DNA of 34,515 bases from Lachnospiraceae bacterium (GTDB lineage: Bacteria > Bacillota > Clostridia > Lachnospirales > Lachnospiraceae). Location of the stretch: contig JAFYEL010000012.1 in NCBI GenBank assembly GCA_017544285.1, positions 1 through 34,515 of the forward strand, in the 5' to 3' direction. The first letter of the stretch is position 1. Each line of letters starts with the position of its first letter. The position numbers and the translations under genes were made by a program. Of this stretch, positions 221 through 28,422 are shown one piece after another. The notes beneath the pieces are model-generated. The model was not told where the DNA came from. It was given only the letters and a program-made list of their open reading frames with translations, and did no database searches.

Positions 221-242
221 GTCCTTTGTAAACAGAACAGGA

Positions 243-355
243 GATCTTCAGGGCGGGGTGAAATTCCCCACTGGCGGTACAGTCCGCGAGCCCGAAAGGG
301 CCGAGCCGGTCGGATTCCGGCACCAACGGTTACAGTCCGGATGAAAGAAGAGGTG
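243..355 (+). promoter_or_regulatory. FMN riboswitch (RFN element) controlling ribU
   Basis: The conserved RFN blocks are present in order: GATCTTCAGGGCGGGGTGAA at the 5' end, then TTCCCCACTGGCGGTA, AGTCCGCGAGCCC, a variable GC-rich stem, and the 3' block AGTCCGGATGAAAGAAGA. This is the FMN-binding aptamer that represses riboflavin genes when FMN is plentiful. The 3' strand of the closing stem (about 340-350) runs directly into AAGAGGTG (348-355), the ribosome binding site of ribU. No separate terminator hairpin with a T-run lies between the aptamer and the ATG at 361. Control by hiding the ribosome binding site is therefore more likely than transcription termination. Confidence 0.95.
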
Positions 356-360
356 TAAAA

Positions 361-1065
361 ATGAAAGATCTTATTTACTTTGTCGTCACTATTCTTGTGC
401 TGTTTGTCGCAGCGATCATCTTCGAGAGGATAATCAAAAACCGAACGGAGCAGAAGAGCCGTGGTTTTGGCGTGAAAAAGACCGCCATGACCGGAATGAT
501 GGCAGCCCTCGCGGCCATCCTCATGCTGGTTGAGGTGCCCCTTCCCTTTGCGCCTTCCTTTTACAAGCTGGACCTTTCCGAGGTGCCGGTGCTGATATCC
601 GCCTTTGCCTTCGGCCCCGTGGCGGGAGTTCTCACCGAGTTCATAAAGATCCTGCTTAAGCTGGTGATCAAGGGAACTTCCACCGCCTTCGTGGGAGAGC
701 TGGCAAACTTCGCCGTGGGCTGTGCCCTGGTGCTTCCCGCCTCGGTCGTTTATTTCTTTAAGAAAAACAAAAAGAGCGCCATACTGGCCTGCATCACAGG
801 CACACTGGTGATGACCGTTTTCGGCAGCATATTCAACGCGGTGTATCTTCTTCCCGCGTTTTCAAATCTTTACGGCATGCCCATGGAGGTTATCCTGGAT
901 ATGGGCTGCAAGGTCAATCCCCTTGTAAAACAGGGGGATATAATCTCATTTGTGGCCGCCTGCGTGGCACCTCTGAACCTCGTAAAGGGAGCAGTGGTTT
1001 CCATCATCACCATCCTGGTCTACAAACACATCAGTCCCGTGATAAAAAAGAATACGGATTCTTGA
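361..1065 (+). CDS. ribU: Riboflavin ECF transporter substrate-binding (S) component
   Basis: This is an integral membrane protein of 234 residues that binds riboflavin at the outer face and delivers it into the cell with a shared ECF energising module, which is not in the window. After a first membrane helix (about 5-23) and a basic loop, the ECF S-component fold starts near residue 40 (MTGMMAALAAILM). It continues with the family hallmarks KLDLSEVPVLISAFAFGP and a following hydrophobic helix series (5-6 helices in total). The protein is slightly longer than usual RibU because of the extra N-terminal helix. The FMN riboswitch directly upstream makes the substrate assignment strong. AAGAGGTG stands 5 bases before the ATG, inside the 3' edge of the riboswitch. 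The stop codon overlaps the -35 box of the next promoter. Confidence 0.92.
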   Translation: MKDLIYFVVTILVLFVAAIIFERIIKNRTEQKSRGFGVKKTAMTGMMAALAAILMLVEVPLPFAPSFYKLDLSEVPVLISAFAFGPVAGVLTEFIKILLKLVIKGTSTAFVGELANFAVGCALVLPASVVYFFKKNKKSAILACITGTLVMTVFGSIFNAVYLLPAFSNLYGMPMEVILDMGCKVNPLVKQGDIISFVAACVAPLNLVKGAVVSIITILVYKHISPVIKKNTDS

Positions 1066-3207: not shown

Positions 3208-5397
3208 ATGAAGGATATCAGGGGGATCAACGAGATAAGGACGGTTTCGCATGTGGCGCTGGTTCTGACCACCACCATCTTTTCGGTGGTGCTCATTTCT
3301 CTGAACATGCTGCTTGGGTGGGAGCACTGGACCATTCCGATATGTGCCGTATCAGCCATAGGCTGTCTGGTTTTGCATATAAACAACACGCTTCCCGAGA
3401 GAGCCAGGATATACATCTATTCCATGGTGCTGATGATAGAGATGTTTTACTACTCCGTAAACGTCGAGACTCTCTATGATTGTACCCCCGTTGTTGTGCT
3501 GGCCCTGGTGATCTTTGTCATGACCCAGGAGAAATCCCTGACCCGCTGGTGCATGGCCGTGGGTTACCTCGGCATGATCTGGCACCTGACCTATGCCGGT
3601 ATCCACGGCGGACTGAATATGAGCCTGTCCGGAGTGGTCAGGACCGTATGGCATATGCTCATAGTCCTCATTGCCGGAGTGGCCACCACCAGACTGGTGG
3701 GAAGCCTTGCCAGAGGAGAGTCAAGGTACAGGGAGTATATTGCTTCCCTGGAAGACGAAAACAAGAGCGCCGGCGATTTTCTGGCCAGTGTATCCCACGA
3801 GATAAGACTTCCCATAAATGCCGTGATAGAGATCACGGATTCCTGTGAAAAGCAGGAGAAGGATCCCGAGCTTAAGCACTTCCTTAAGGCAGCAACCCGG
3901 GAGGGCAAGAAGGTTGCCATGCAGATCGGCGACATTCTTGACTATGCCGAGATCGAGATGAAGAAGCTCACCTTCAACAACATAAACTACAGACTGTCAT
4001 CGGTTCTTGAGGATGTCATATCTTCGATACTCCCCTATAAATCAAAGGATATCGAGCTGGTGATCGATGTGGAGCCCTCCATCCCCGCGGTGATGAACAC
4101 CGATGTGGGTAAGCTGAAAAAAATACTTTTGCACCTTATCATGAACGCCATCGAATTTACCAGAGACGGCGGCGTGTATGTGCGTATATATCCCGTTCGT
4201 CAGGAGTACGGCATGAATCTATGCATCGATGTGTCCGATACGGGAGTGGGAATGAAGGAATCGGATCTGGATCGGATCTTCGAACGCTTCTACAAGGCGG
4301 ATAATCCCGACGGATCCACTTCCGCCGGCCTGGGGCTGGGCATGTCCATTGTTGCGGGCTTTGTCAGGTATCTGGGCGGCTTTATAACCATCGACAGCGC
4401 AATGGGTGAGGGCACTAAGGTCAGTGTCAGCATTCCACAGGTGATAGTGGATGATTCCGAGTGCATGGTGGTTTCCGACCGTGAAAGCATGAGCCTGGGC
4501 GGATATTTCCACTATGAGCTCTTCCCCAACCCTCATGTCCGCGAGTTCTACGAAAACATGATCAAAAATATCGCCTGTGGGCTCAGGGTTCCCATGCACA
4601 GGGTGCAGAACGGCAGCAGCCTGAAGACCATGGTCGATGAGCTGAAGCTTACCCATATGTTTGTGGGTTCGAGAGAGTACGAGTCGAATCCCGCCGTCAT
4701 CGAGGAGATCGCAAGGGGTATGTATGTGTTCCTGGTGGCTGAAAAAGGCTACGCCCTTCCCGAGGGTTCGGCCATCAGGCTTCTGGAAAAACCCTTCTAC
4801 TGTTTTAACATAGTCAGAGCCATAAACCAGACGGGGTCCGTTGTGACCGGCAATTCCGCCGAAACCGATGCAATGCATTTCTTGCCGGAGATCACTTATC
4901 ATGAGGCTGAAGATACTTCTCCGGCCTCCGCCGGACCGGCGGCGGAAACGAATATCTATGAGGTGACCGGTAAAAAGGATGAGGCGGACATACTGGAGGC
5001 TGCGGGGATCGATACCGGAAAGGGCCTTATGTATTCCTTAAACGACAGGGAACTGTACGAGACACTCCTTCGGCAGTTTGTTATGGACAGTGAAGAAAAA
5101 CTGACCAACGCCGGACTGTTCTTTGACTCCAATGATCTCTCCGATTACGAGATCGTGGTCCACGCCTTAAAGAGTACCGCACAGATGATAGGTGCCATGA
5201 AGCTTTCCGATGAAGCCAGGCTTTTGGAGAGAGCGGCAAAGGGAGGCGACGGAGGTTATATCCGCGACAATCATGCCCGGGTGATGGAAATCTACCGTCA
5301 GTCTGTGGAAGCGATAGCAAAAGCGTTTCCCGATCCCGGCGATGATGAAGAAGATGTGCTGGAGTTTGCCCCCGAGGGAGGTGATCTTTCCATATGA
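3208..5397 (+). CDS. Membrane hybrid histidine kinase with a dead receiver domain and a C-terminal HPt domain
   Basis: The protein has 729 residues. Residues about 10-175 form six predicted membrane helices with no large outside domain. The HisKA domain has its phospho-acceptor in SVSHEIRLPIN (His197). The ATP-binding domain has MNAIEFTRDGG (N box), DVSDTGVGM (G1) and AGLGLGMS (G2), so kinase activity is expected. In HisKA the residue four after His is Leu instead of the usual Thr/Asn, which should weaken phosphatase activity. Residues about 420-550 resemble a receiver: LLEKPF keeps the conserved Lys, but the acidic pocket and phospho-acceptor Asp are absent. Residues about 600-720 are an HPt domain with VHALKSTAQMIGA (His652). 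The gene overlaps the next kinase gene by four bases. An AGGG eight bases upstream supports the start. Confidence 0.85.
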   Translation: MKDIRGINEIRTVSHVALVLTTTIFSVVLISLNMLLGWEHWTIPICAVSAIGCLVLHINNTLPERARIYIYSMVLMIEMFYYSVNVETLYDCTPVVVLALVIFVMTQEKSLTRWCMAVGYLGMIWHLTYAGIHGGLNMSLSGVVRTVWHMLIVLIAGVATTRLVGSLARGESRYREYIASLEDENKSAGDFLASVSHEIRLPINAVIEITDSCEKQEKDPELKHFLKAATREGKKVAMQIGDILDYAEIEMKKLTFNNINYRLSSVLEDVISSILPYKSKDIELVIDVEPSIPAVMNTDVGKLKKILLHLIMNAIEFTRDGGVYVRIYPVRQEYGMNLCIDVSDTGVGMKESDLDRIFERFYKADNPDGSTSAGLGLGMSIVAGFVRYLGGFITIDSAMGEGTKVSVSIPQVIVDDSECMVVSDRESMSLGGYFHYELFPNPHVREFYENMIKNIACGLRVPMHRVQNGSSLKTMVDELKLTHMFVGSREYESNPAVIEEIARGMYVFLVAEKGYALPEGSAIRLLEKPFYCFNIVRAINQTGSVVTGNSAETDAMHFLPEITYHEAEDTSPASAGPAAETNIYEVTGKKDEADILEAAGIDTGKGLMYSLNDRELYETLLRQFVMDSEEKLTNAGLFFDSNDLSDYEIVVHALKSTAQMIGAMKLSDEARLLERAAKGGDGGYIRDNHARVMEIYRQSVEAIAKAFPDPGDDEEDVLEFAPEGGDLSI

Positions 5398-8090
5398 TAA
5401 AAAGATTCCTTCGTTATCTGTTAAATGAGAAACTCGATATTCAGGAGCGCCTTTTCGGACTGTCCACAGCCATAGGCATGACGGGAGTTGCCGCGGCCTT
5501 TGTTTCCGGTCTTATCCTCGGTGAGTCAAAAGCGGGCCTGATATATGCCGTGGCAAGTTTTTTCTGCTACCTCGTGATAGTGTTCCTGGGTTACCGGTTC
5601 CGCAGGGTAAACCTGGCGGCCAAGATCATATCGGTGGCCATCATCTTTGTTTTTCTGCCCCTGACCTTCTTTACCAGCGGAGGTATATACGGAGGCTCTC
5701 CGATATGGTTTCTGTTCGGCATTATCTATGTGGGCATGATCATGAATGGGGGCAGCAGGATATTCTTTCTCCTGGGAGGCGTGATAGTCACTGCTGTCTG
5801 CTGGGTAGTGGGAAAAGAGCATCCGGAATATATCGTTCAGCATACCGAGAATACGGCCTATTCCGACGCCATGTGGTCACTTTATATCGTGTGCGGCGTA
5901 CTCCTTTCCCTGATCATCTTCCAGACCTATCTGTACAGGCGTGAAAACCAGAGGGCAGCAGCACAGAAAAAAGAGATCGAGGAGCTGGGTGAGGCCCAGA
6001 ACCGTTTCTTTTCCAGCATAAGCCACGAGATCAGGACTCCCATAAATACCATCATCGGTCTGAATGAGATGATCCTGAGGGAGAATGCCTCAAAGGAGAT
6101 AAACGAGGATGCGGTGAATATCCAGACCGCCGGCAGGATGCTGCTCCATCTGATCAACGACATCCTGGATATGTCCAAGATCCGTTCCGGACAGATGCAG
6201 CTCACCACCATGGCTTATAAAACCGGTGATATGATCACCGACATCGTGGGCATGATATCCGTAAAGGCAAAGGAGAAGAATCTGAAGTTCTCCGCGGACG
6301 TGACTCCCAAGCTTCCCGCGGAGCTCATAGGCGATGAGGTGAGGATAAAGCAGATTTTGATAAATATCCTCAACAATGCCATCAAGTACACCAACGATGG
6401 TTTCGTCTCCATGTCGGTCCAGTGTGCATCCCTGACGGATAAAAGGATGAACGTGATCTTTGCCGTGACCGACACCGGCATTGGCATCAAGAAAGAGAGC
6501 ATGCCCTTCCTTTTCAACGCGTATCAGCGTGCCGATGAGGAAAAGAACCGATATATAGAGGGAACGGGCCTGGGACTTTCCATAGTAAAGCAGCTGCTGG
6601 ATCTTATGGACGGCAGGATCACCGTGAACAGCGTATACACCAAGGGATCTACCTTCATCGTGGAGATCCCGCAGAAGGTTGCGGACTCCAGTCCCGTGGG
6701 CGAGCTTGACTTTGAGGGCAGCTCCGTAAGCAGGAGCAGGGACTACAAATATAACAGGAGCTTTGAGGCGCCCGAGGCAAAGATCCTGGTGTGCGACGAC
6801 ACGGCGGCTAACCTCATTGTGGTGGAAAAGCTCCTTCGTCCCATCCATGCAGATGTCACCACCGTGAAGAGCGGTGCCATGGCGTTGGAAAAGACCCTGG
6901 ATAATCACTACCACGTGATCCTCATGGATCATATGATGCCCGAGATGGACGGAATAGAATGTATGCACAGGATCAGGAACCAGACGGGAGGACAGTGCAA
7001 GGATTCAAAGATAGTCATCTTTACTGCCAACGCGGGGTCGGAACACAGGGCCATGTATTCAGAGGAAGGCTTTGACGGATATCTGGTGAAACCTGTCACG
7101 GGAAGCGCCCTTGAGGCTGAACTTCGCAAGCAGCTGCCCCGTGAGATCGTCCTCTTTGCCGGTGATGCGGAAAAGATATTCGACGACGGAAACGTGGTCG
7201 CATCCATGCACAGCAACAAGACCCTTGTTTCCATAACCACCGAGAGTGTGGCGGATCTTCCCGGGGATTATAAAGAAAAGAACAAGGTATCCGAAATTCC
7301 CTACAAGGTAATAACCGACAGGGGCATCTTCCGGGACGGCATGGAGATAGAGACCAGAGGTGCCATTTCCTATATGCAGAGTACCGATGCCAATGTCTAT
7401 TCACAGCCCCCCGGGGTGGAAGAGTACGAGGCCTTTTTTGCAAAACAGCTTGAGAACAGCTACAACGTGATCCACATCGCACTGTCATCGAAAATAATGA
7501 AGTCCGGATTCGAAGACGCAATGGAGGCTTCAAAAGCCTTCGACAATGTCACCGTGATCGATTCCCAGCAGGTGGGAGGCGGCCATGGACTTCTGGTGAT
7601 GATGGCATGCCGGCTGGCGGATCAGGGCCTTTCCCCCAGAGAGATAACCGAAGAGCTTCTCCGCATCAGGAGCAGAGTGGTGGGTGGCTTCATAGTTGAC
7701 GATGCCGAATACCTGGTAAGGGCAGGACAGATACCGGCACGGATTTACGGCTTCACCAGAGCCTTCATGATCCACCCCGTGATCGTTATGAAAAAAGGCC
7801 GCATGAAGCTTGGCAGGGTATGCTTCGGCACAAGGGAAAAGGCATGGGAGACCCATGTCAGGAAAGCACTTAAGAGCAGACGCCGGCCCGATAAGAGACT
7901 GCTGATCATCACTCACGTGGGCCTTACTCACAGAGAGATAGAGAGTATCAGGGAGGCTGTCCTCAGCGTTGTGAAATTTGAAAACATATATGTGAACCAG
8001 GCCTCCCCCGCCATTGCGGTAAACTGCGGCCCCGGAACCTTCGGCCTCTTCTGTTTTACACAGGACGATGTTGACATTTACAAACCTTAG
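5394..8090 (+). CDS. Membrane hybrid histidine kinase-receiver fused to a DegV lipid-binding domain
   Basis: The protein has 898 residues. Six predicted membrane helices (about 20-185) and a short coiled linker lead to HisKA with SISHEIRTPIN (His211). The HATPase domain has NILNNAIKYTNDG, AVTDTGIGI and GTGLGLSIV. The receiver (about 461-580) is intact: CDD near its start, the phospho-acceptor Asp512 in LMDHMMPEMDG, IFTANAG, and Lys in YLVKPV. Residues about 611-898 match a full-length DegV domain: SITTESVADLP, YSQPPGVEEYEAFF, ALSSKIMKSGF, VIDSQQVGGGHG, YLVRAGQIPAR, FMIHPVIVMKKGRMKLGRV and CGPGTFGLF. DegV/FakB proteins hold a fatty acid in a closed pocket and present it to the kinase FakA. The His usually just before GPG is absent here (VNCGPG). 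Fusion to a kinase suggests lipid sensing or a phosphorylation-controlled lipid carrier; this is inference. The start overlaps the preceding stop (ATGA). Confidence 0.88.
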   Translation: MIKRFLRYLLNEKLDIQERLFGLSTAIGMTGVAAAFVSGLILGESKAGLIYAVASFFCYLVIVFLGYRFRRVNLAAKIISVAIIFVFLPLTFFTSGGIYGGSPIWFLFGIIYVGMIMNGGSRIFFLLGGVIVTAVCWVVGKEHPEYIVQHTENTAYSDAMWSLYIVCGVLLSLIIFQTYLYRRENQRAAAQKKEIEELGEAQNRFFSSISHEIRTPINTIIGLNEMILRENASKEINEDAVNIQTAGRMLLHLINDILDMSKIRSGQMQLTTMAYKTGDMITDIVGMISVKAKEKNLKFSADVTPKLPAELIGDEVRIKQILINILNNAIKYTNDGFVSMSVQCASLTDKRMNVIFAVTDTGIGIKKESMPFLFNAYQRADEEKNRYIEGTGLGLSIVKQLLDLMDGRITVNSVYTKGSTFIVEIPQKVADSSPVGELDFEGSSVSRSRDYKYNRSFEAPEAKILVCDDTAANLIVVEKLLRPIHADVTTVKSGAMALEKTLDNHYHVILMDHMMPEMDGIECMHRIRNQTGGQCKDSKIVIFTANAGSEHRAMYSEEGFDGYLVKPVTGSALEAELRKQLPREIVLFAGDAEKIFDDGNVVASMHSNKTLVSITTESVADLPGDYKEKNKVSEIPYKVITDRGIFRDGMEIETRGAISYMQSTDANVYSQPPGVEEYEAFFAKQLENSYNVIHIALSSKIMKSGFEDAMEASKAFDNVTVIDSQQVGGGHGLLVMMACRLADQGLSPREITEELLRIRSRVVGGFIVDDAEYLVRAGQIPARIYGFTRAFMIHPVIVMKKGRMKLGRVCFGTREKAWETHVRKALKSRRRPDKRLLIITHVGLTHREIESIREAVLSVVKFENIYVNQASPAIAVNCGPGTFGLFCFTQDDVDIYKP

Positions 8091-10875: not shown

Positions 10876-12168
10876 ATGCTTAAGATATTTCTTGTGGAAG
10901 ATGAATATGTGGTGCGTAAAGGCATCCAGAATATAGACTGGGAAGGGCACGGTTATGAGTTCTGCGGCGAGGCCGCGGACGGAGAGCTGGCTTTCCCTCT
11001 CATACAGAAGCTGAGGCCCGACATAGTCATCACCGACATAAAGATGCCTTTCATGGACGGACTGGAGCTCTCGAGGCTGATCAAGAAGGAATTCCCCTGG
11101 ATGGAGATAGTCATACTCTCGGGCTATGCCCAGTTTGACTACGCCAAGGAAGCCATCAGCATTGGTGTGGCCCACTATCTTACGAAGCCCATCAGTGCAG
11201 AGGAGCTGCTGCGTGAGGTGGGCAGGATAGCCGAGAGCATAGGCAACCGCAGGGCAGAAAAGGAGACCCAGGAAAAGGCCGAGCTTCTGGAGCTGGCCGG
11301 TGGTCTTGAAAAGGATCTTCTCACGGCCTGGCAGAACATTTCCAAGCTTCGTGACGGGATCACCAGCGGAGCCCTGGCTGATGCAAAGAGCCTTGCCTCC
11401 GCAGTGGTAAAAGGCAGCGTCTCCGAGCGGACCGAGGGCGACGATGAGGCCAGAGAAGATGCGGCGGGAATGCCGGGGATCAGACCCGGAGAGATCGACC
11501 GCAGAAGGGTGGACGACTTTTTGCGCCACGGCAAAAGGGACGACATCGCCGGATTTCTGGATGGCTTTATCTCGGATATCGGCGAGGGGGCCATCAACTC
11601 CCTTCTCATCAGACAGTATATTACCATGGACGTCTATTTCGCCTGTGCTTCCTTCCTGTCGGATATCTGGGACGAGGCAGCGGAGGACACCCCTCCGGAG
11701 CCGGGCTTTGACGAGATGGCCGCCCAGACCCTGGACGGGACTGTGGACTACATATCCGAGCTTCTTGACAAGGTGATGATGCTCAGGGATGAGCTTGTGA
11801 ACAACAGCCGCGGAAAGAGTGTGGTGGACGACATCAAAAAGTACATCGACGACAACTACGGAGATGATGAGCTGACACTCAACAAGATAGCCTCCAAGCT
11901 GGGATTCTCACCGGGACATCTCAGCATGGTCTTCAGCCGTCATACCGGTACCACCATCATAAAATACCTGACGGATTACCGCATGAACAAGGCAAAGGAG
12001 CTTTTAAGATGCACCTCGAAGCGGAGCGCGGACATTGCCTTGGACGTGGGATACAAGGATCCTCATTATTTTTCTCATATATTTAAGAAGACCCAGGGTA
12101 TGACCACTACCATGTACAGGAGCCAGAAGGCTGAGGAGGAAAAGAAGCCGGATGAAGAAATGGGTTAG
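10876..12168 (+). CDS. AraC-type response regulator (YesN family) of the pentose locus
   Basis: This is a cytoplasmic transcription factor of 430 residues. The receiver (1 to about 120) is intact: VEDE near the start, Asp54 in VITDIKMPFMDG, ILSGYAQFDYAKEAI, and Lys in YLTKPIS. A long helical, acidic linker (about 125-320) follows, typical of YesN proteins. The C-terminus (about 325-425) has two helix-turn-helix motifs of the AraC class: LTLNKIASKLGFSPGHLSMV and SADIALDVGYKDPHYFSHIF. It overlaps the YesM-type kinase gene by 17 bases, and the sugar transporter operon starts after that. The two most likely form the system that activates the pentose genes; this is inferred from position. No promoter is visible in the 11 bases between the upstream terminator and the ATG. 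Confidence 0.92.
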   Translation: MLKIFLVEDEYVVRKGIQNIDWEGHGYEFCGEAADGELAFPLIQKLRPDIVITDIKMPFMDGLELSRLIKKEFPWMEIVILSGYAQFDYAKEAISIGVAHYLTKPISAEELLREVGRIAESIGNRRAEKETQEKAELLELAGGLEKDLLTAWQNISKLRDGITSGALADAKSLASAVVKGSVSERTEGDDEAREDAAGMPGIRPGEIDRRRVDDFLRHGKRDDIAGFLDGFISDIGEGAINSLLIRQYITMDVYFACASFLSDIWDEAAEDTPPEPGFDEMAAQTLDGTVDYISELLDKVMMLRDELVNNSRGKSVVDDIKKYIDDNYGDDELTLNKIASKLGFSPGHLSMVFSRHTGTTIIKYLTDYRMNKAKELLRCTSKRSADIALDVGYKDPHYFSHIFKKTQGMTTTMYRSQKAEEEKKPDEEMG

Positions 12169-13276
12169 GGAATGGCTTAAATCTATGCCGTTGGAGACCA
12201 GGATAAGGCTGTCATACGCAGTGCTGCTGCTGCCTTTTGCAGCCTTCATGCTGTTCTGCCTGGCAAATCTCTGGAGAATGAACATGCGCTATGATGAGCT
12301 GCTGCTCACCGTGCTGAAATGGCATCCCGAGGCGGAGTCCACGAGAAACGGGATCCGCCTTTATTATTCGCAGATGCTTTCCTTTGTGGTGGCCGGCTTC
12401 GCCATTCTGACAGTGGCCACCATAGTTGTTTCCTATCTGCTTTCGCGCTCCATCACGAAGCCCATCGGAAGGCTTTCCAGGGCGGCGGAGCGGGTGGCCA
12501 GAGGAGAGCTTTCCGTCCGTGTCAATGTGGACAGCGGCGGCGAGGTTGAGACACTGGCCCGTTCCATGAATACCATGATCGTCAGGACCAACAGGCTGGT
12601 AAAGCAGGTCACGAGAGAGCAGACCAGGCTCAGGAAAGCGGAGCTGGAGCTGCTGCAGTCACAGATAAACCCCCACTTTTTATACAATACCCTTGACACC
12701 ATAATATGGCTTGCGGAGGCGGGAGACCAGCCCAGCGTCGTCAGCATGGTAGGCAGTCTTTCCGATTTTTTCCGGGTGAGTCTGAGCCAGGGCAGGGATA
12801 TAGTCACCGTCAGGGAGGAGCTTAAACATGTCTACAGCTACCTGCAGATCCAGCAGGTGCGCTATCAGGATATCCTGGAGTATTCCATAAACGTTCCGGA
12901 GGAGCTGTTTGAACAGTCAATTCCCAAGATCACCCTTCAGCCCCTGGTGGAAAATGCACTTTACCACGGTATAAAAAACAAGAGGGGGATGGGAAGGATC
13001 ACCCTCTGGGGAGAACGTCAGGGCGGAGTTTTCCGTCTCTATGTCAGCGACAATGGCATCGGAATGAAAAACGACAGACTGAAACAGGTGAGCGACACCA
13101 TAAACAATCCCTCCGCTTCGGACGACGAGATCTTCGGCCTGAACAACGTAAATGAGCGTATCAGAATGAAGTTCGGAGGGCGTTACGGCATCCATGTGGA
13201 CAGCAGTTATCTGGTGGGGACTCTGGTCACAGTGCTCCTTCCGTATAAAACTGAACATGGAGAAGAGCTCGGTTAA
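12152..13276 (+). CDS. YesM-type sensor histidine kinase with a very short outside loop
   Basis: This is a membrane kinase of 374 residues. Helix 1 is about 22-43, then only about 27 residues lie outside, then helix 2 (about 71-97). A HAMP domain follows with SRSITKPIGRLSRAAERVARG. The His_kinase domain has the phospho-acceptor His175 in QSQINPHFLYNTLDT. The ATPase domain has LQPLVENALYHGIKN and VSDNGIGM. Most YesM proteins have a large outside dCache domain; here it is missing, so direct sugar binding outside is unlikely. The downstream gene encodes a sugar-binding lipoprotein, and clostridial and Geobacillus systems are known where a sugar-binding protein reports to a kinase (AraP-AraS-AraT type). 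A similar arrangement is plausible here. The start codon at 12152 lies inside the regulator gene, preceded by GAGG. Confidence 0.9.
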   Translation: MKKWVREWLKSMPLETRIRLSYAVLLLPFAAFMLFCLANLWRMNMRYDELLLTVLKWHPEAESTRNGIRLYYSQMLSFVVAGFAILTVATIVVSYLLSRSITKPIGRLSRAAERVARGELSVRVNVDSGGEVETLARSMNTMIVRTNRLVKQVTREQTRLRKAELELLQSQINPHFLYNTLDTIIWLAEAGDQPSVVSMVGSLSDFFRVSLSQGRDIVTVREELKHVYSYLQIQQVRYQDILEYSINVPEELFEQSIPKITLQPLVENALYHGIKNKRGMGRITLWGERQGGVFRLYVSDNGIGMKNDRLKQVSDTINNPSASDDEIFGLNNVNERIRMKFGGRYGIHVDSSYLVGTLVTVLLPYKTEHGEELG

Positions 13277-13331
13277 TAATCTCAACCTAAATATTTGAAA
13301 TCTACACTTAAAAAACGCACAAAATCAAAAA

Positions 13332-13359
13332 TTGAAACAAAAAATATATTATCTATATT
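13332..13359 (+). promoter_or_regulatory. Putative promoter of the sugar transport operon
   Basis: TTGAAA (13332-13337) and TATATT (13354-13359) are 16 bases apart in an AT-rich stretch. This would give a leader of about 90 bases before the binding-protein gene. I see no clear catabolite-control (cre) box. Confidence 0.5.
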
Positions 13360-13395
13360 TTACGAAAAAACGGTGTGAGATATTATTATTCACGT

Positions 13396-13450
13396 CGGGA
13401 GAATAGGCTCCCGTCAGATTCCGGTTTAAAACCGATTTTTTTTAAGGAGG
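13396..13450 (+). promoter_or_regulatory. Structured leader: two hairpins and a T-run ending at the ribosome binding site
   Basis: Hairpin 1 has a 6-bp stem, CGGGAG (13396-13401) with CTCCCG (13408-13413). Hairpin 2, CGGTTTAAAACCG (13422-13434), is weak (5-6 bp) and is followed by A and eight T (13436-13443). These run directly into AAGGAGG (13444-13450), the ribosome binding site of the binding-protein gene. This could be a weak terminator or attenuator, or a structure that affects translation or stability. No function is proven by the sequence. Confidence 0.45.
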
Positions 13451-13455
13451 AGAAT

Positions 13456-14526
13456 ATGAAGAAAAAGGTATTGGCAGCTGTTCTTGCCGGTGCAATGGTA
13501 CTTGGCCTTAGCGCATGCGGCGGCGGCGCAGCAGCAACAAACGAGCCCGCTCCCGCTCCTGCAGCAACCGAGGAGAAGAAGGAAGAGGCAGCTCCCGCAG
13601 CTACCGAGGAGAAGACTGAGGAGGCAGCTCCCGCAGCTTCAGGCGACCTGATCAAGGTTGGTATCATCAACAACGACCCCAACGAGTCAGGTTATCGTAC
13701 CGCAAATGACAGAGACCTTCAGGCTACTTTCAGCGCAGAGAATGGCTATGATGCATCTTTCGCATACAGCCTTAAGAACGATGAGCAGATCGCAGCAGCT
13801 CAGAAGTTCATTCAGGACGGTGTTGATTACCTTCTGCTTTCCGCAGCTGATACAGCAGGTTGGGACGGCGTTCTTCAGGACGCTAAGGATGCAGGCATCG
13901 AGGTTATCCTCTTTGACCGTACCATCGACGCAAGCCCCGATCTCTATGCAGCTTCCATCGTTTCCGACATGGACAAGGAAGGTCAGACCGCAGTTGACTG
14001 GCTTGCAAGCCAGAACCTTGACAAGTATGATGTGATCCATATCCAGGGTGTTATGGGTAGTGCAGCTCAGAAGGGCCGTTCAGGCGCTCTTGACGCCAAG
14101 GTTGCAGCTGAGGATAACTGGAACATCGTTACCCAGCAGACTGCAGAGTGGAACGCAGAGACCGCACAGCAGATCGTTCAGTCCGTTATCGATTCCGGCA
14201 AAGAGTTCAACGTAATCTACGCTGAGAACGACGATATGGCTAAGGGTGCTGTAGCAGCTCTTGACAAGGCAGGCATCTCTCACGGTGTTGGCAAAGACGT
14301 GATCGTTATGGGCTTTGACTGCAACAAGTGGGCTCTTGAGGAGCTCCTTGCTCAGAACTGGAACTATGATGGACAGTGCAATCCTTTCCAGTCTTCTTAC
14401 ATCGACGATGTAATCAAGAAGCTTGAGGCAGGCGAGACCATCGCTGAGAAGACCATCATCATGGATGAGAAGGGCTTCGATGCCACCACTATTACACAGG
14501 AAGACGTAGACACCTACGGAATCTAA
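13456..14526 (+). CDS. Sugar ABC transporter substrate-binding lipoprotein, YtfQ-like
   Basis: This is a lipid-anchored protein of 356 residues on the outer face of the membrane. A signal peptide ends in the lipobox LSAC, with lipidated Cys21. Residues about 28-58 are a flexible Ala/Pro/Glu linker with two imperfect copies of APAATEEK(K/T)EEA. The Peripla_BP_4 sugar-binding fold follows. It closely follows E. coli YtfQ in such places as NESGYR, AADTAGWDGVLQDAKDAGI and VILFDRTID, so a furanose form of a sugar is likely. Together with the araD and kinase genes, arabinose or arabinofuranose is the best guess. The ATG at 13456 has AAGGAGG six bases before it; an in-frame GTG at 13375 would put 27 residues before the signal peptide and is rejected. 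Codons are noticeably biased (GCA/GCT, CGT, CTT, GTT), as in a highly expressed gene. Confidence 0.92.
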   Translation: MKKKVLAAVLAGAMVLGLSACGGGAAATNEPAPAPAATEEKKEEAAPAATEEKTEEAAPAASGDLIKVGIINNDPNESGYRTANDRDLQATFSAENGYDASFAYSLKNDEQIAAAQKFIQDGVDYLLLSAADTAGWDGVLQDAKDAGIEVILFDRTIDASPDLYAASIVSDMDKEGQTAVDWLASQNLDKYDVIHIQGVMGSAAQKGRSGALDAKVAAEDNWNIVTQQTAEWNAETAQQIVQSVIDSGKEFNVIYAENDDMAKGAVAALDKAGISHGVGKDVIVMGFDCNKWALEELLAQNWNYDGQCNPFQSSYIDDVIKKLEAGETIAEKTIIMDEKGFDATTITQEDVDTYGI

Positions 14527-14565
14527 TCTATCCTGTGACAGCTAATAGCTAAAGCACAATTCCGG

Positions 14566-14603
14566 CGGCCCGGCGTCACAAAGTTGACAGTCGGGCCGTT
14601 TTT
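14566..14603 (+). terminator. Terminator-like hairpin between the binding-protein and ATPase genes
   Basis: CGGCCCG (14566-14572) pairs with CGGGCCG (14592-14598). The stem continues inward through GTCA (14575-14578) with TGAC (14585-14588), and five T follow. It sits inside the operon, so partial termination or protection of the binding-protein mRNA from 3' decay is likely. That would give more binding protein than ATPase and permeases. Confidence 0.8.
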
Positions 14604-14621
14604 GATTAAAGGGGGACCGAT

Positions 14622-16145
14622 ATGAAGGAAAATGCCATATTGCAACTCACCGGAATATACAAGAGTTTTCCGGGAGTCAAGGCACTTCAGAATGTTGATT
14701 TCAATCTCTGTAAGGGTGAGATACACGCGCTTATGGGAGAAAACGGAGCCGGTAAGTCCACACTGATAAAGGTGCTGACCGGCGTATATACAAAAGACGA
14801 GGGTGAAATTTATCTGGACAGTCATGTGGAGCCTGTAGCGATCCGTTCGCCTCAGGATGCTCAGCATTTCGGAATAAGCACGGTGTATCAGGAGATCACC
14901 CTCTGTCCCAATCTTTCGGTTGCTGAAAACATCTATATTGGCCGTACCGACGGTATTTACCAGAATTGGAAAAAAATGAACGAGGGCGCAAGAAAAATGC
15001 TTCAGTCCCTCGAGATCCCCGTTGAGCCTACCACACAGCTGGGAAGCTGCTCCATAGCAGTTCAGCAGATGGTGGCCATAGCCAGGGCGGTGGACATGGA
15101 CTGCAAGGTCCTGATCCTCGACGAGCCTACTTCTTCACTGGATGACCAGGAGGTTCAGAAGCTCTTCAGGCTTATGCGGGAACTTAAACAGCGAGGTGTT
15201 GGTATTATATTCGTTACCCACTTCCTGGATCAGGTATACGAGGTCTGCGACAAGATCACCGTTCTCCGCGACGGACAGCTTGTGGGCGAATACGAGATCA
15301 AGGATCTGCCCAGAGTGCAGCTCGTATCAAAGATGCTCGGCAAGGAGCTTGATGACATGTCGGATATCAAATCCGAAAGCAGTGCACCCGCAGAGCTCGA
15401 GAAAGCCGACGTCATATTCGAAGCAAAGGATCTTTGCTCAAACGCAGGTATCAAGCCCTTCGATTTCTATATCAAAAAGGGTGAGGTCAACGGCTTTACC
15501 GGACTTCTCGGTTCCGGACGAAGCGAGTGCGTAAGAGCCATTTTCGGAGCCGACAGGGTTACCGGCGGCACCGTTAAAAAGAATGGCAAGACCATCAAGA
15601 TCCAGAAACCCATAGATGCAATGAAAAACGGCATAGCGTACCTGCCTGAGGACAGAAAGATCGACGGTATCGTCGGCGATCTCTCCGTTCGGGAAAACAT
15701 CATTCTCGCCCTCCAGGTCATGAAGGGATTCTTCAAGCCCTTCACCAAGGCCCAGGCCAATGCTTTTGCCGATGAATACATTAAGCTTCTCTCCATTAAG
15801 ACCGCTTCGGCGGACACACCGATCAAGTCACTTTCCGGCGGAAACCAGCAGAAATGCATCATCGCCCGCTGGCTGCTGACACATCCCGAGTATCTTATTC
15901 TGGATGAGCCCACCAGAGGTATCGACGTTGGTACGAAGGTGGATATTCAGAAGCTCGTCCTCAAGCTTGCATCAGAGGGCATGAGTGTAACCTTTATCTC
16001 ATCCGAGACAGACGAGATGCTCCGAACCTGCTCCAGGCTCATCGTCATGAGAGACCGCAAGGTAGTAGGAGAACTTTCGGGAGATGATCTGACACAGACA
16101 AAGATCATGAGCACCATAGCCGGTAATGAGGAGGAGAAAAAATGA
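14622..16145 (+). CDS. Sugar ABC transporter ATP-binding protein, YtfR/RbsA/MglA-like (two nucleotide-binding domains)
   Basis: This is a membrane-associated ATPase of 507 residues, the usual length for the tandem-domain sugar importers. Domain 1 (about 5-240) has Walker A GENGAGKST, the signature region CSIAVQQMVAIARA and Walker B ILDEPTSSLDD. Domain 2 (about 265-500) has the modified Walker A GLLGSGRSE, normal for this family where Lys is lost. It also has signature LSGGNQQKCIIARWL and Walker B ILDEPTRGIDVG. The start ATG has GGGGGA eight bases upstream. It comes after the internal hairpin and overlaps the first permease gene by four bases (ATGA). It energises import through the two permeases downstream. 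Confidence 0.95.
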   Translation: MKENAILQLTGIYKSFPGVKALQNVDFNLCKGEIHALMGENGAGKSTLIKVLTGVYTKDEGEIYLDSHVEPVAIRSPQDAQHFGISTVYQEITLCPNLSVAENIYIGRTDGIYQNWKKMNEGARKMLQSLEIPVEPTTQLGSCSIAVQQMVAIARAVDMDCKVLILDEPTSSLDDQEVQKLFRLMRELKQRGVGIIFVTHFLDQVYEVCDKITVLRDGQLVGEYEIKDLPRVQLVSKMLGKELDDMSDIKSESSAPAELEKADVIFEAKDLCSNAGIKPFDFYIKKGEVNGFTGLLGSGRSECVRAIFGADRVTGGTVKKNGKTIKIQKPIDAMKNGIAYLPEDRKIDGIVGDLSVRENIILALQVMKGFFKPFTKAQANAFADEYIKLLSIKTASADTPIKSLSGGNQQKCIIARWLLTHPEYLILDEPTRGIDVGTKVDIQKLVLKLASEGMSVTFISSETDEMLRTCSRLIVMRDRKVVGELSGDDLTQTKIMSTIAGNEEEKK

Positions 16146-17248
16146 GTCCTGAAATGAACAAAGTTTCTAAAAAGTCCGACTTTCCGGGGAGCCTTCTGCG
16201 CAATCAGCTTTTTATCCCCTTTGCGGCACTTTTTATACTTCTTGTATTTAACCTTATAGCCGATCCTTCCTTTTTCAAGATCACCATGAGCCAGAGTAAT
16301 GCGGGCAATGCAGTGCTTTTGGGGCCCATCATCACGATCCTTGACAATGGTTCGGAGCTGGCTATCCTTGCCATAGGCATGACCCTGGTAACGGCAGCTA
16401 CCGGCGGACAGGATATCAGTGTGGGCGCAGCCATCGCCATCGCAGGTTCCACCCTGCTGAGAGTGCTCTGCGGAACCAACACCAGACCCGATACCCTGCG
16501 CACCACCGTTTTTGCAGCCTTCCTTATCAGCGTGCTGGTGGCCATGGCCTTCGGTGCATTCAACGGAATGCTGGTGGCCATATTTAAGATCCAGCCCATG
16601 GTTGCGACCCTGATCCTTTATACGGCAGGCCGCTCCATAGCAGCATGGATAAACAACAACGAGCTTCCCATCATCAGCACCCAGGCATCCCCCACCTTTG
16701 CTTACTACGGCGGATACATCCCCGGGATTCCGATCCCCACGCCCTTCTTCATTGCAGCGGCATGCGTGGTAGTGATCCTTCTGGTGCTGAAGTTCACGAA
16801 CCTGGGTCTTTACACTCAGGCTGTCGGTATCAACGAGAGCTCATCCAGACTTAACGGACTGAATCCCGTATTCATCAAGTGGCTTACCTTTGTTATCCTC
16901 GGTGTCTGCGTAGCGGTTGCCGCACTGATCAAGGTCAGCAGACTTTCTTCCATCAACTATTCCGTTATCGCAAAGGATATAGAGATGGACGCCATCCTTG
17001 CTGTGGCGCTGGGCGGAAATGCCCTCAGCGGAGGAAAGTTCAACATGGTTGCCTCCATCATCGGTGCATACGTTATTCAGATGCTTACAACGACGCTTTA
17101 CAAATTCCAGGTACCTTCGGATGCGCTTCCCGCATACAAGGCCGTAGTCGTAATACTCCTGGTAGTATTCTCGGCACCGGCTGTCAGGGAAAAGCTTGAG
17201 CGCATGGACATCGGCCGATCTAAAAAGACCGGTGGGGTAAGGGCATAA
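16142..17248 (+). CDS. Sugar ABC transporter permease 1, YtfT-like
   Basis: This is an integral membrane protein of 368 residues of the BPD_transp_2 (ribose/galactose-type) permease family. It has about nine or ten hydrophobic helices. The family motif TAATGGQDISVGAAIAIAGS comes after helix 2-3. The cytoplasmic loop that contacts the ATPase appears later as GINESSSRLNGLN and is followed by DAILAVALGGNALSGGKFN. Two different permease genes next to a YtfQ-like binding protein match the E. coli YtfQRT-YjfF layout; this one corresponds to YtfT. It is translationally coupled to the ATPase gene. Confidence 0.93.
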   Translation: MSPEMNKVSKKSDFPGSLLRNQLFIPFAALFILLVFNLIADPSFFKITMSQSNAGNAVLLGPIITILDNGSELAILAIGMTLVTAATGGQDISVGAAIAIAGSTLLRVLCGTNTRPDTLRTTVFAAFLISVLVAMAFGAFNGMLVAIFKIQPMVATLILYTAGRSIAAWINNNELPIISTQASPTFAYYGGYIPGIPIPTPFFIAAACVVVILLVLKFTNLGLYTQAVGINESSSRLNGLNPVFIKWLTFVILGVCVAVAALIKVSRLSSINYSVIAKDIEMDAILAVALGGNALSGGKFNMVASIIGAYVIQMLTTTLYKFQVPSDALPAYKAVVVILLVVFSAPAVREKLERMDIGRSKKTGGVRA

Positions 17249-17262
17249 AGGAGGATAGAAAA

Positions 17263-18273
17263 ATGGGTAAGAAATTAAAGAATATGACCGATTCAAACCT
17301 TTTGCTCCTTATAACCATCGTCATCTTTTTCCTGATGTACGTCGGAGCCGTGGTATTCCAGGGAAAGGGCTTCCTTAAGGCCCAGACCTTCTTCAACATT
17401 CTTAATGAGAATGCAGCACTCATCATACTGGCCTGCGGCATGAGCCTTGTAATGATCACCGGCGGTATCGATATTTCCGTTGGTGGTGTGACCGCACTGG
17501 TTACCATGTGCTGTGCAGTTTATCTTGACAGGCATGACGGCAATGTGGGCTTCTCCATAGTCATAGCCCTTCTCATCGGACTTGCCTTCGGTATTGTCCA
17601 GGGTTATCTGGTTGCCTACCTTGACATCCAGCCGTTCATAGTCTCGCTGGCTGGTATGTTCTTTGCCCGAGGTATGACTACCATAGTAAACACAAACCCT
17701 TTCAACGTTGAGAACGCCGAGTTCGTTGCCCTCAAGGCCACCCGTGTGGTAGTTCCCTTCATGGGAACCATAAACAAAAAGGGCAAGTACGTGGACGCCT
17801 ATGTTGAGATCGGCGTTATAGTTGCCCTCATCATGGTAATCCTTCTGTTCTGCTTTCTGCGCTGGACCAGCCTGGGCCGCAGCTTCTATGCAGTGGGCGG
17901 TAACAAGCAGAGCGCTCTGATGCTCGGTATCAACGTTAAAAAGACAAAATTCCTTTCGCACCTTATCTGCAGCATACTGGCAGGTATCGGCGGCTATGTA
18001 TACTTCCTTCACGTAGGTTCCGGAGCGGCAACAAACGCCCAGGGCGCCGAAATGAACGCAATAGCCTCATCCATCATCGGCGGCACGATGCTTACCGGCG
18101 GTGTCGGCAATATCATAGGTACCCTCTTCGGAGTGCTTTCACTTGCCACCATTAAAAACATCGTTGCAAGTGCCGGACTCGACCAGGCATGGTGGACGGG
18201 TATCACCATCGCTGCAATGCTCTGCATCTTCCTTGTGATCCAGAGTGTGGTAATGGCACGTAAAAAGAAATGA
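17263..18273 (+). CDS. Sugar ABC transporter permease 2, YjfF-like
   Basis: This is an integral membrane protein of 336 residues, the second BPD_transp_2 permease. It has about nine or ten hydrophobic helices, GMSLVMITGGIDISVGGVTA near helix 3, the ATPase-contact loop AVGGNKQSALMLGINV, and SSIIGGTMLTGGVGN later. It likely pairs with permease 1 to form a heterodimeric channel, as YtfT and YjfF do. AAGGAGG at 17248-17254, eight bases before the ATG, marks the start; the gap to permease 1 is 14 bases. Confidence 0.93.
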   Translation: MGKKLKNMTDSNLLLLITIVIFFLMYVGAVVFQGKGFLKAQTFFNILNENAALIILACGMSLVMITGGIDISVGGVTALVTMCCAVYLDRHDGNVGFSIVIALLIGLAFGIVQGYLVAYLDIQPFIVSLAGMFFARGMTTIVNTNPFNVENAEFVALKATRVVVPFMGTINKKGKYVDAYVEIGVIVALIMVILLFCFLRWTSLGRSFYAVGGNKQSALMLGINVKKTKFLSHLICSILAGIGGYVYFLHVGSGAATNAQGAEMNAIASSIIGGTMLTGGVGNIIGTLFGVLSLATIKNIVASAGLDQAWWTGITIAAMLCIFLVIQSVVMARKKK

Positions 18274-18283
18274 GGGATGAAAA

Positions 18284-19870
18284 ATGGAACATAAGGATCT
18301 GATACAGAAGGGTGAGGCCGTACTTGGAATAGAGTTCGGCTCCACCAGGATCAAAGCAGTTCTCATAGACCGCAAGGGTACTCCCATCGCATCCGGAGGA
18401 TACGGATGGGAGAACAGCTACACCGACGGAATCTGGACCTATCCCATTGAGCAGATCCACGAAGGTCTCAGAGAGTGCTACAGTGACCTGCTAAAGGATA
18501 TTGACGAAAAATACGGCGTAAAGCCCACACGTTTCGCGGCCATCGGAATCTCCGCAATGATGCACGGATACCTTGCTTTTGACGGGGATGACAACCTTCT
18601 GGTTCCTTTCAGAACCTGGAGAAATACCATCACCGAACAGGCAGCGGTTGAACTTACGGAGAAATTTGGGTATAATATTCCCCAGCGTTGGAGTATAGCC
18701 CATCTCTATCAGGCTATCCTCAACAAGGAAGAGCATGTGGGCAGGATCGCATTCCTCACCACACTGGCAGGCTATGTACACTACAGACTCACGGGCAAAA
18801 AGGTCCTGGGAGTGGGAGATGCCTCGGGCATGTTCCCCATCGACATATCCACCGGTGACTATGACGCCGGAATGCTTGACAAGTTCAGAAGCCTTGCAGG
18901 TCAGCCCTGGGATATAAAGGATATCCTTCCCGAGGTGCTCACCGCAGGTGATGACGCCGGATGCCTCACCGCAGAGGGCGCAGCCTTCCTTGACAAGACA
19001 GGCAGCCTTGAGGCAGGTGTTCCCGTTTGTCCTCCCGAGGGCGACGCGGGCACAGGCATGACAGCCACAAACAGCGTTGGTGTTCGCACCGGTAATATTT
19101 CCGCGGGTACTTCCGTATTTGCCATGGTGGTCCTTGAGAAGGAACTTTCAAAGGTATATCCCGAGATAGACCTTGTGACCACTCCCGACGGAGCGCTGGT
19201 GGGCATGGTACACTGCAACAACTGTACCAACGAGATCAACGCCTGGGTAAACCTCTTTAAGGAATACAGCGAGCTCATGGGCCAAAAGGTCGACATGAAC
19301 GAGCTTTTCACAAAGCTTTATTCCGTTGCTCTTTCCGGAGACAAGGATTGCGGAGGTCTTCTGACCTACAACTATCTTTCCGGAGAGCCGGTTACCGGAT
19401 TTGCAAAGGGCGCACCCCTTTTCGCAAGAGGTCCCGAAGGCAGGTTCTCACTTGCCAACGTTATGCGGGCAAATCTTTATTCGGCCCTTGCCACCCTTAA
19501 GGTGGGCCTTGACATCCTGTTTAAGCAGGAGGGAGTAAAGGTTGACGAAATGCTGGGCCACGGCGGTTATTTCAAGACCGAAAAGGTCGGACAGAGCATA
19601 GCCGCAGCCGCTATCGATGCGCCGGTTTCCGTAATGGAGACAGCGGGAGAGGGCGGAGCCTGGGGTATAGCACTTCTGGCAGCTTATATGGCAGACAAAA
19701 AAGAGGGACAGAGCCTTTCCGATTATCTGGCACAGGTGATCTTTGCCGGCATGGACGTTAAGAAGCTCTCACCCGACGCAGAGGATGTGGCCGGATTCGA
19801 GAAGTTCATGGAGCTCTACAGAAAGGGCCTTGAGACCGAGAAGGCCGCAGCCGATCTGTTTGCCGTTTAA
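18284..19870 (+). CDS. FGGY-family sugar kinase, probably L-ribulokinase
   Basis: This is a cytoplasmic kinase of 528 residues. The N-terminal phosphate-binding strand is VLGIEFGSTRIKAVLIDRKG. The sugar-binding half includes GISAMMHGYLAFDG and FRTWRNT. The second ATPase half has ISAGTSVFAMVVLEK, then LGHGGYFKTEKVGQSIAAAA and ETAGEGGAWGIALLAAYM, the region of the second FGGY signature. FGGY enzymes phosphorylate pentoses and related sugars. The araD gene next door suggests the substrate is L-ribulose, but xylulokinase cannot be ruled out from sequence alone. GAGGG stands seven bases before the ATG. The gene sits 10 bases after permease 2, in the same operon. Confidence 0.8.
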   Translation: MEHKDLIQKGEAVLGIEFGSTRIKAVLIDRKGTPIASGGYGWENSYTDGIWTYPIEQIHEGLRECYSDLLKDIDEKYGVKPTRFAAIGISAMMHGYLAFDGDDNLLVPFRTWRNTITEQAAVELTEKFGYNIPQRWSIAHLYQAILNKEEHVGRIAFLTTLAGYVHYRLTGKKVLGVGDASGMFPIDISTGDYDAGMLDKFRSLAGQPWDIKDILPEVLTAGDDAGCLTAEGAAFLDKTGSLEAGVPVCPPEGDAGTGMTATNSVGVRTGNISAGTSVFAMVVLEKELSKVYPEIDLVTTPDGALVGMVHCNNCTNEINAWVNLFKEYSELMGQKVDMNELFTKLYSVALSGDKDCGGLLTYNYLSGEPVTGFAKGAPLFARGPEGRFSLANVMRANLYSALATLKVGLDILFKQEGVKVDEMLGHGGYFKTEKVGQSIAAAAIDAPVSVMETAGEGGAWGIALLAAYMADKKEGQSLSDYLAQVIFAGMDVKKLSPDAEDVAGFEKFMELYRKGLETEKAAADLFAV

Positions 19871-19872
19871 TG

Positions 19873-19889
19873 ACCGGTAAAAGACCGGT
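19873..19889 (+). repeat. Short inverted repeat between the sugar kinase and araD genes
   Basis: ACCGGT (19873-19878) and ACCGGT (19884-19889), themselves palindromic, can form a 6-bp hairpin with loop AAAAG right after the kinase stop codon. No T-run follows, so it is not a normal terminator. It may be an mRNA processing or stability site. Confidence 0.5.
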
Positions 19890-19921
19890 CGAAAAGAATA
19901 GGATCACTGAGAGGTAGATCA

Positions 19922-22751: not shown

Positions 22752-22768
22752 TAACAGCGAGGAATACC

Positions 22769-28085: not shown

Positions 28086-28086
28086 T

Positions 28087-28356
28087 ATGTCGGAGTCGGC
28101 CTTTAACAGAGCCCTTTCAAATTTTACATACGAGGTTGCCTGCAGACGTGGTATCAGGCACCTGTACGATCTGGGCTACGATGTGGACTCCATACTTAAG
28201 GAACTGTCCTATCCGGCAAAGCGGGAGACCGTGGAGCGCGAAATAAAGGAATACCGCGAGGAAAAGGAAAAACAGGCTGCGGGCGCAAAACTTCCCACCT
28301 ATGTCTCGGAGACCGATGAACTGGGCCGCAGCACTTTCAGGAGAGTTGATACCTGA
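28087..28356 (+). CDS. Small conserved-looking protein (89 residues), unknown function
   Basis: The start at 28087 has GAGGAG (28077-28082) four bases before it and lies one base after the aquaporin stop. A longer in-frame reading from 27976 would overlap the aquaporin gene and is not needed. The protein is soluble and mostly helical: FNRALSNFTYEVACRRGIRH, then LYDLGYDVDSILKELSYP, then a highly charged helix (EREIKEYREEKEK) and a short tail. The repeated pattern of Leu and Tyr around an Asp/Ser turn looks like a small helical-bundle or DNA/protein-binding fold, but I do not recognise a family. Confidence 0.65.
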   Translation: MSESAFNRALSNFTYEVACRRGIRHLYDLGYDVDSILKELSYPAKRETVEREIKEYREEKEKQAAGAKLPTYVSETDELGRSTFRRVDT

Positions 28357-28422
28357 AAATTATCCCCGAACTATAAGGGTTTAACATAGATGTAACCTAA
28401 GTGACAAAAAAGGAGGCGGAGA

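Follow-up and report, generated by a model that had tools for sequence, protein, structure and literature searches.

The stretch of DNA analysed here, hereafter the window, comprises positions 1 to 34,515 (34,515 nucleotides) of contig JAFYEL010000012.1 from a Lachnospiraceae bacterium (assembly GCA_017544285.1), and carries two adjoining kinase genes, A and B, of which B encodes a hybrid histidine kinase with a DegV domain at its C-terminal end (Table 1). Behind an N-terminal membrane region in which Pfam finds no family, the product of B matches HisKA (PF00512, residues 201-266, E = 7.9e-17), HATPase_c (PF02518, residues 313-427, E = 3e-25), a Response_reg receiver (REC; residues 464-577, E = 3.8e-19) and DegV (PF02645, E = 5.4e-39), all four above their own Pfam cut-offs. 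The DegV match is near full length (profile positions 2-278 of 280), and NCBIfam TIGR00762 also recognises the domain (150.1 bits; cut-off 99.7). The start of B at ATG 5394 is sound, because a Shine-Dalgarno-like stretch, GGAGGTGAT, lies 8 nucleotides before it and the ATG overlaps the stop of A by 4 nucleotides (ATGA). We rejected an internal start at Met606 that would yield a free DegV protein; no Shine-Dalgarno-like stretch precedes this codon.

Table 1. Features of the A-B pair (window positions) and loci of the split form in relatives.
Feature	Position	Strand	Basis
Gene A, partner kinase HisKA-HATPase-pseudoreceiver-HPt, 729 aa, overlaps B by 4 nt	3208..5397	+	Pfam
A, pseudoreceiver-like stretch, residues about 430-545 (limits by eye), without phosphorylatable Asp	4495..4842	+	Alignment
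A, HPt domain, His652	5065..5244	+	PF01627, E 2.5e-7; HALKS motif at 652
Shine-Dalgarno-like GGAGGTGAT, 8 nt before ATG 5394	5377..5385	+	Sequence inspection
Gene B, hybrid histidine kinase HisKA-HATPase-REC-DegV, 898 aa	5394..8090	+	Open frame, Pfam order
B, N-terminal membrane region, residues about 10-185, several hydrophobic segments	5421..5948	+	Hydropathy scan
B, HisKA, phospho-acceptor His211	5994..6191	+	Pfam PF00512
B, HATPase_c	6330..6674	+	Pfam PF02518
B, receiver domain, Asp512	6783..7124	+	Pfam Response_reg
B, DegV domain, residues 612-888	7227..8057	+	PF02645
B, Gln779 at FakB catalytic/latch Arg position (R170)	7728..7730	+	Alignment
B, Phe811 at FakA-docking Arg position (R202), then Gly812	7824..7829	+	Alignment
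B, N-C-G-P-G, Asn877 at carboxylate-network His position (H266)	8022..8036	+	Alignment
Split-form DegV, three genomes	L162:4651-5542; L163; L164	+; -; -	

The fusion is widespread among relatives. A protein search of genome contigs gave at least 599 matching stretches, the best 80 loci of which were fetched (hereafter, the fetched loci), and in 80 of 80 a kinase motif, a receiver and DegV lie within one frame of 785-1203 amino acids. No stop or frameshift interrupts the junction between receiver and DegV in the window, and because this junction is unbroken and all 80 loci from other genomes have the same parts in one frame, the fusion is not an assembly artefact. The preliminary description of this DNA, which had claimed a single open frame for kinase, receiver and DegV, is thus borne out, and the checks it had named gave a significant PF02645 match and the same architecture in other genomes. 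Its statement that the kinase and receiver are intact holds across the family as well: among 97 aligned B proteins, the window's included, His211 is conserved in 96 and Asp512 in 96, the HATPase residues N328 and D360 and the motif glycines G362, G364, G390, G392 and G394 in all 97, and the receiver's acid pair and lysine in 95 (D468), 96 (D469) and 96 (K566), with each kinase and receiver residue tested being kept in 94-97.

By their records, 66 of the fetched loci come from Lachnospiraceae and 5 from Oscillospiraceae, 6 have no family, and single loci are from Eubacteriaceae, Clostridiaceae and Rikenellaceae; many of the record titles denote rumen isolates or rumen metagenome-assembled genomes (MAGs). 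Using a profile of 29 fused DegV domains in a same-family survey, we counted by hand a fused-type DegV frame of at least 700 amino acids in at least 46 of 299 genomes among the matches listed, and diverged forms like that of G399 (197.6 bits) could lie below these. Most long fused frames exceed 260 bits, and free DegV usually stay under 245 bits. The G399 fusion departs from this, as do three split cases, two B genes that occupy adjacent frames and the fusions truncated at the end of a contig, namely L232 of G406, L231 of G417 and L002 of the window genome. With a cut-off of E <= 1e-60, which lower-scoring fused forms would escape, DegV frames of at least 700 amino acids were found in 9 of 391 genomes of a class sample, of which 6 belong to the same family and 3 to a single other genus, and in 3 of 398 of a phylum sample, all of the same family. 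Such frames are rare in these broader samples. A plasmid search with B matched at least 5000 records, none covering 80% of the query, and among the 10 matches listed, which end at residues 568-691, none spans DegV.

Several genomes hold more than one copy or a broken one. The window genome has a second fusion, L002, which carries the receiver and DegV; L004 and L034 each contain two A-B pairs in tandem, and three long DegV frames are listed for each of G002 and G041. In two relatives the B gene occupies two adjacent frames, a kinase-receiver part of 633 amino acids followed by a DegV of 288 (L230 of G513, 4177-6863, plus strand) and a kinase-receiver part of 574 amino acids followed by a DegV-HPt part of 419 (L233 of G531, minus strand); the break between receiver and DegV is either a frameshift or a true split. 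These two loci, along with L231 and L232, stand outside the residue counts given below. One fusion, L081, derives from a MAG labelled Alistipes (Bacteroidota) that is probably misbinned or mislabelled, since its neighbour in the DegV tree is a domain of G060, a genome of the window's family. DegV frames of 580, 601 and 620 amino acids (L172, L178 and L177) are other cases, assigned to neither the fused nor the free set; the 601-residue one (L178:3095-4901) has, by eye, a FakA-type N-terminal part and then a DegV with Phe for the docking Arg and Asn for the His discussed below.

Gene B rarely stands alone. The 80 fetched loci contain 82 B frames, 79 of which remained after 3 failed an overlap filter, and a homologue of A lies directly upstream in 75 of these 79. 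The B genes for which no A was called are those of L012, L029, L053 and L066; BLAST finds a partial A at L029 and L066, and L012 begins 530 nucleotides from a contig end. The A proteins carry a pseudoreceiver that stands before their REC domain. At its phosphosite column 73 of the 76 proteins have Gly, Ala, Thr or Ser, two have Asp and one has Val; in the window's A this stretch has no Pfam REC match. The pair as a whole contains a histidine phosphotransfer (HPt) domain almost without exception: among 76 A-B pairs it is located in A in 42, in B in 32, in neither in 2 (L027 and L062, the latter with a short B frame) and in both in none, so that 74 of 76 pairs have exactly one and no pair has two. 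Lengths follow this division. B proteins of 1115-1203 amino acids pair with A proteins of 604-722 and end in HPt, with DegV standing between the receiver and the HPt, and the A protein of one long-B locus scanned by Pfam has no HPt. B proteins of 785-972 amino acids pair mostly with A proteins of 818-964 (shorter A in L016, L042, L060, L062 and the window), and three such A proteins scanned by Pfam have HisKA, HATPase and REC together with an HPt match that ranges from weak to clear. The window's A, like that of L016, has no receiver of its own, and hence Asp512 of B is the only receiver site and His652 of A the only HPt site of the pair; the window is a reduced case of the A-B unit. We considered and rejected a transfer of the HPt from A to B, as 32 of 32 long-B HPt tails are closer to other hybrid kinases of the fetched loci than to any A tail. 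Since all 17 long B frames in the tree fall in one clade, the HPt of long B is probably a replacement that arose in one evolutionary event.

The DegV domain itself is complete in length and strongly altered in its functional residues. We number residues as in PDB chain 4X9X (20 distinct PDB sequences match DegV at E <= 0.001), whose R170, R202, H266, T61 and S93 we take to correspond to R173, R205, H270, T62 and S95 of Staphylococcus aureus FakB1, a presumed equivalence based on motif positions in the alignment and on the FakB2 literature rather than on a superposition. For comparison, 103 fused rows were reduced to 98 distinct domains by dropping 5 exact duplicates, and two sets of free DegV were used: 83 from fetched loci, which are mostly the best Pfam scorers (68 of 83 from L084-L143) and include the 3 split and 10 sister-clade domains described below, and, as a less biased control, 39 from outside the split class in eight genomes that carry a fused or split form. 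In FakB1, the carboxylate network reportedly consists of Thr62, Ser95, Ser171 and His270, catalysis requires Arg173, and Arg205 binds FakA and the membrane (PMC8892158, PMC9136124). The docking Arg at 202 is kept in 2 of 98 fused domains, compared with 80 of 83 and 34 of 39 in the two free sets; the catalytic or latch Arg at 170 in 29 of 98, compared with 82 of 83 and 38 of 39; and the carboxylate-network His at 266 in 3 of 98, compared with 69 of 83 and 32 of 39. All three occur together in none of the 98 fused domains, in 69 of the 83 and in 32 of the 39. At 61, 93, 170, 202, 266 and 267 the window's B has Ser, Met, Gln, Phe, Asn and Cys, and L001, a free DegV of the same genome, has the canonical Thr, Ser, Arg, Arg, His and Leu.

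The replacements are themselves patterned. The Asn-Cys before Gly-Pro-Gly that the preliminary description had pointed out (N877-C878) is a trait of the family, with Asn at 266 in 86 of 98 fused domains (0 of 39 free DegV of the eight genomes) and Cys after it in 77 of 98, and its suspicion that the lipid contact differs is supported both by this position and by the replacement of other FakB residues. Its word "complete" fits only the length of the domain. Gly occupies the position of Gly812 in 102 of 103 fused rows, and positions 200 and 202, basic in free DegV, are mostly hydrophobic in the fused ones. Position 61, where the local alignment is uncertain, is Ser in the window and Ser or Thr in 85 of 98. 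In short, the signalling parts of B are intact and most of the functional residues of FakB are replaced. Loss of R202 alone is not unique to the fusion: of the 39 free DegV, 4 lack it and carry Tyr at 266, and a fifth has His at position 202 instead. Four free DegV proteins of an RVY/RIY type (L201, L216, L224 and L227), in which the docking Arg is lost and the His is replaced by Tyr, form a possible further non-FakB class.

The altered domain is nevertheless maintained rather than decaying. The ratio of nonsynonymous to synonymous substitution (dN/dS) could be computed for 11 of 16 close pairs and lies at 0.06-0.15 in these, a rough range given that dS exceeds 1 in most pairs and that the pairs are not independent. 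The tunnel elements, as far as alignment columns can tell, have not been deleted: of the 282 columns filled in more than 80% of free DegV, only 2 are filled in fewer than half of the fused and split rows. Mean pairwise identity is 38% for DegV, between the 27% of the membrane region and the 57% of the receiver. In a tree of 99 DegV domains (51 fused, 3 split, 10 of a sister type and 35 other free ones; quick IQ-TREE search, rooted on ordinary free DegV), the fused rows form one clade (SH-aLRT 95), which is joined by three free-standing split domains (99) and then by a clade of free DegV with intact residues (100). In the split form, present in G064, G505 and G044, a separate DegV with Asn-Cys and without the docking Arg directly follows an A-type kinase. 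The sister clade with intact residues shows a kinase motif in the fetched flank in 0 of 10 cases, the flank being short for five. The kinase-receiver part of B has 39.6-44.3% identity to the first 15 hybrid-kinase matches listed. The likely order of events is that a free carrier became a partner of kinase A and was then fused to a second kinase, the kinase-receiver part of which resembles ordinary hybrid kinases.

Candidate outputs for the pair are found among its neighbours, where the labels HD-GYP, GGDEF and kinase come from short motif searches that Pfam confirmed in some cases (a REC-HD_5 protein in L020, a receiver in L068). In 73 loci, the 312 kb lying within 2.5 kb of the pair hold 52 receiver proteins that have no kinase motif, versus 13 in the 424 kb farther away; for REC-HD-GYP proteins the numbers are 13 and 1. 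Of 62 loci, at least 23 have a receiver protein without a kinase motif directly upstream on the same strand (gap below 60 bases), and 16 of these proteins also show an HD-GYP or GGDEF motif; directly downstream there is a receiver protein without a kinase, HD-GYP or GGDEF motif in 17 of 63. In the window, Pfam finds no response regulator directly adjacent to the pair. The nearest one, at 10876-12168, is of AraC type with its own kinase beside it, and for this reason the target of the window's relay must be elsewhere; the window genome contains 15 HD_5 matches. The preliminary description had not noted that B belongs to a two-gene unit with an HPt kinase, that split forms exist, that the fused domains make up a single clade or that response regulators lie nearby.

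We propose that the fused DegV serves as the ligand sensor of the A-B relay, a reading drawn from sequence comparison to which we give an even chance of being right. A and B would together constitute one membrane-anchored, two-kinase phosphorelay, in which a former FakB that no longer serves FakA acts as the ligand-sensing module. Having lost most of its lipid-activation residues, the domain looks like a lipid carrier that became one component of a signalling switch. The domain may still enclose a hydrophobic ligand, either a free fatty acid or a related acyl compound taken up at the membrane, and binding of this ligand would alter the neighbouring receiver or kinase. Phosphate would then travel from the histidine kinase to Asp512 of B, on to the HPt at His652 of A and finally to a response regulator outside the pair. 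In many relatives this regulator is probably a neighbouring enzyme of cyclic di-GMP (c-di-GMP) turnover (REC-HD-GYP or REC-GGDEF) or another receiver protein. We hold a broader scenario only tentatively: that a lipid carrier was recruited once, at first as the separate partner of a kinase and then by fusion, and that it founded a new class of cytoplasmic lipid or acyl-ligand sensors that set the phosphate flow of the relay and, through it, c-di-GMP turnover in Lachnospiraceae.

Several observations weigh against ligand sensing. A domain placed after a receiver is more usually an output than an input. The Ser93 contact is variable, position 93 (in a locally uncertain alignment) being Ser in 61 of 98 fused domains and Met in the window, and the second fusion of the window genome, L002, has a still more altered site with Tyr at 93 and Thr at 202. 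Nine neighbour clusters scanned by Pfam contain no lipid gene. The change in the HPt pattern is probably a single evolutionary event, the new HPt did not come from A, and the dN/dS values that speak for maintenance carry the roughness stated above. Moreover, a FakB-like domain need not bind a ligand: FakA_C reportedly has no tunnel and serves docking (PMC9136124).

This precedent leads to the first alternative, in which the fused DegV is a ligand-free docking or dimerisation domain that, like FakA_C, ties A, FakA, FakB or some other protein to the relay. The now hydrophobic positions 200 and 202 could be a new protein interface, the contacts of Ser93 and His266 are weakened in the fused domains, and the three split cases suggest that DegV can act in trans beside an A kinase. 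However, FakA_C reportedly does not have the tunnel-roof insertions of FakB (PMC9136124), whereas the fused DegV keeps 280 of 282 columns and mostly retains a hydroxyl residue at position 61; we consider this docking role somewhat unlikely. An output role for DegV is an improbable second alternative. Here, phosphorylation of Asp512 would open or close the lipid site, so that the kinase controls the loading or release of lipid at the membrane. The place of DegV behind the receiver would suit such a role, and the dynamic region of FakB, reported to open at membranes (PMC8892158), could be allosterically driven. Yet an HPt is present in 74 of 76 pairs, which suggests that phosphate is passed out of the protein. 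Receiver proteins are also more frequent near the pair, and with the Arg that contacts membrane and FakA lost in 96 of 98 fused domains, no known lipid acceptor is apparent.

It is highly unlikely that the fused DegV still functions as a FakB and supplies FakA with fatty acid, with the fusion merely regulating or localising it. The window genome does encode a FakA-like protein, and the PF02645 match runs almost from end to end; against this stand the near-absence of R202, the counterpart of FakB1 R205, and of H266 from the fused class and the presence of the canonical free DegV L001 in the same genome. The coupling to the Fak reaction through acyl phosphate that the preliminary description had envisaged finds no support. 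Although the genome has the FakA-like protein and L001, 96 of 98 fused domains no longer have the docking Arg, and 69 of 98 have lost the catalytic one. It is hardly credible that the fusion reflects a faulty assembly or that its DegV is a passenger domain in decay, for although the window genome is a 146-contig draft of 84% completeness and L230 and L233 have receiver and DegV in separate frames, all 80 fetched loci are fused in one frame, dN/dS is low in the computable pairs and the fused domains form one supported clade.

Elsewhere in the window, the AraC-type response regulator and its histidine kinase open a plus-strand cluster (10876-20641) that continues with a sugar-type ABC transporter, an FGGY kinase and a class II aldolase, and that looks like an ordinary sugar-uptake cluster. 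A 653-amino-acid EAL protein (c-di-GMP phosphodiesterase; 22748-24709, plus strand) follows a threonyl-tRNA-synthetase-like gene and does not adjoin the A-B pair. At the other end, an FMN riboswitch (Rfam RF00050, 105.9 bits; 240-356, plus strand) directly precedes an ECF transporter S component (361-1065, plus strand), which owing to this position is probably a riboflavin transporter. Seven minus-strand open reading frames scanned in the about 6.4 kb from 28086 to 34515 have no Pfam match.

Compared with known systems, B shares a full-length domain with the FakB/DegV family (PF02645, TIGR00762; examples are S. aureus FakB1 and PDB chain 4X9X) and differs in that this domain sits behind a kinase and a receiver and has other residues in place of the FakA-docking Arg and the carboxylate-network His, as it does for the catalytic Arg in 69 of 98 cases. 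Its kinase-receiver part resembles the HK-REC-HPt hybrid kinases of the fetched loci (for instance L010:1189-5154), and long B likewise ends in HPt; B differs from them by a DegV after the receiver or between receiver and HPt, whereas two such kinases scanned by Pfam carry dCache sensors. SaeS of S. aureus is not known to carry a DegV domain. SaeRS does offer a case of two-component signalling that responds to the cellular fatty-acid pool, with Fak acting on SaeS indirectly, and since fatty acids are already described as inhibitors of SaeRS (PMC5539427), a link between Fak and two-component signalling is not in itself new. FakB4 of Streptococcus pyogenes is a DegV protein that has been proposed to control lipids and not to take them up; it differs in being described as a stand-alone FakB without an attached kinase (PMC10138225). 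FakA_C shares with B the reuse of a FakB-related domain inside a larger protein and differs in being part of the lipid kinase itself (PMC9136124). A literature search, judged mostly by title and abstract and covering subscription papers poorly, listed no title or abstract describing a kinase fused to DegV. Because TIGR00762 recognises the domain above its cut-off, such fusions probably stand in databases under a DegV label, or else as kinases.

A hybrid kinase with an added domain is known; what is new is DegV as that domain and the conversion of DegV that accompanies it. Proteins labelled DegV cannot all be counted as FakB, and the residues at 202 and 266 tell the fused class apart from most of the free FakB-like proteins that the same genomes encode. 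Lachnospiraceae are major fermenters of the gut and rumen. If the fused domain does sense fatty acids or another acyl compound, these bacteria would possess a dedicated sensor for lipids, derived from a lipid carrier, that could connect the status of membrane lipids to c-di-GMP.

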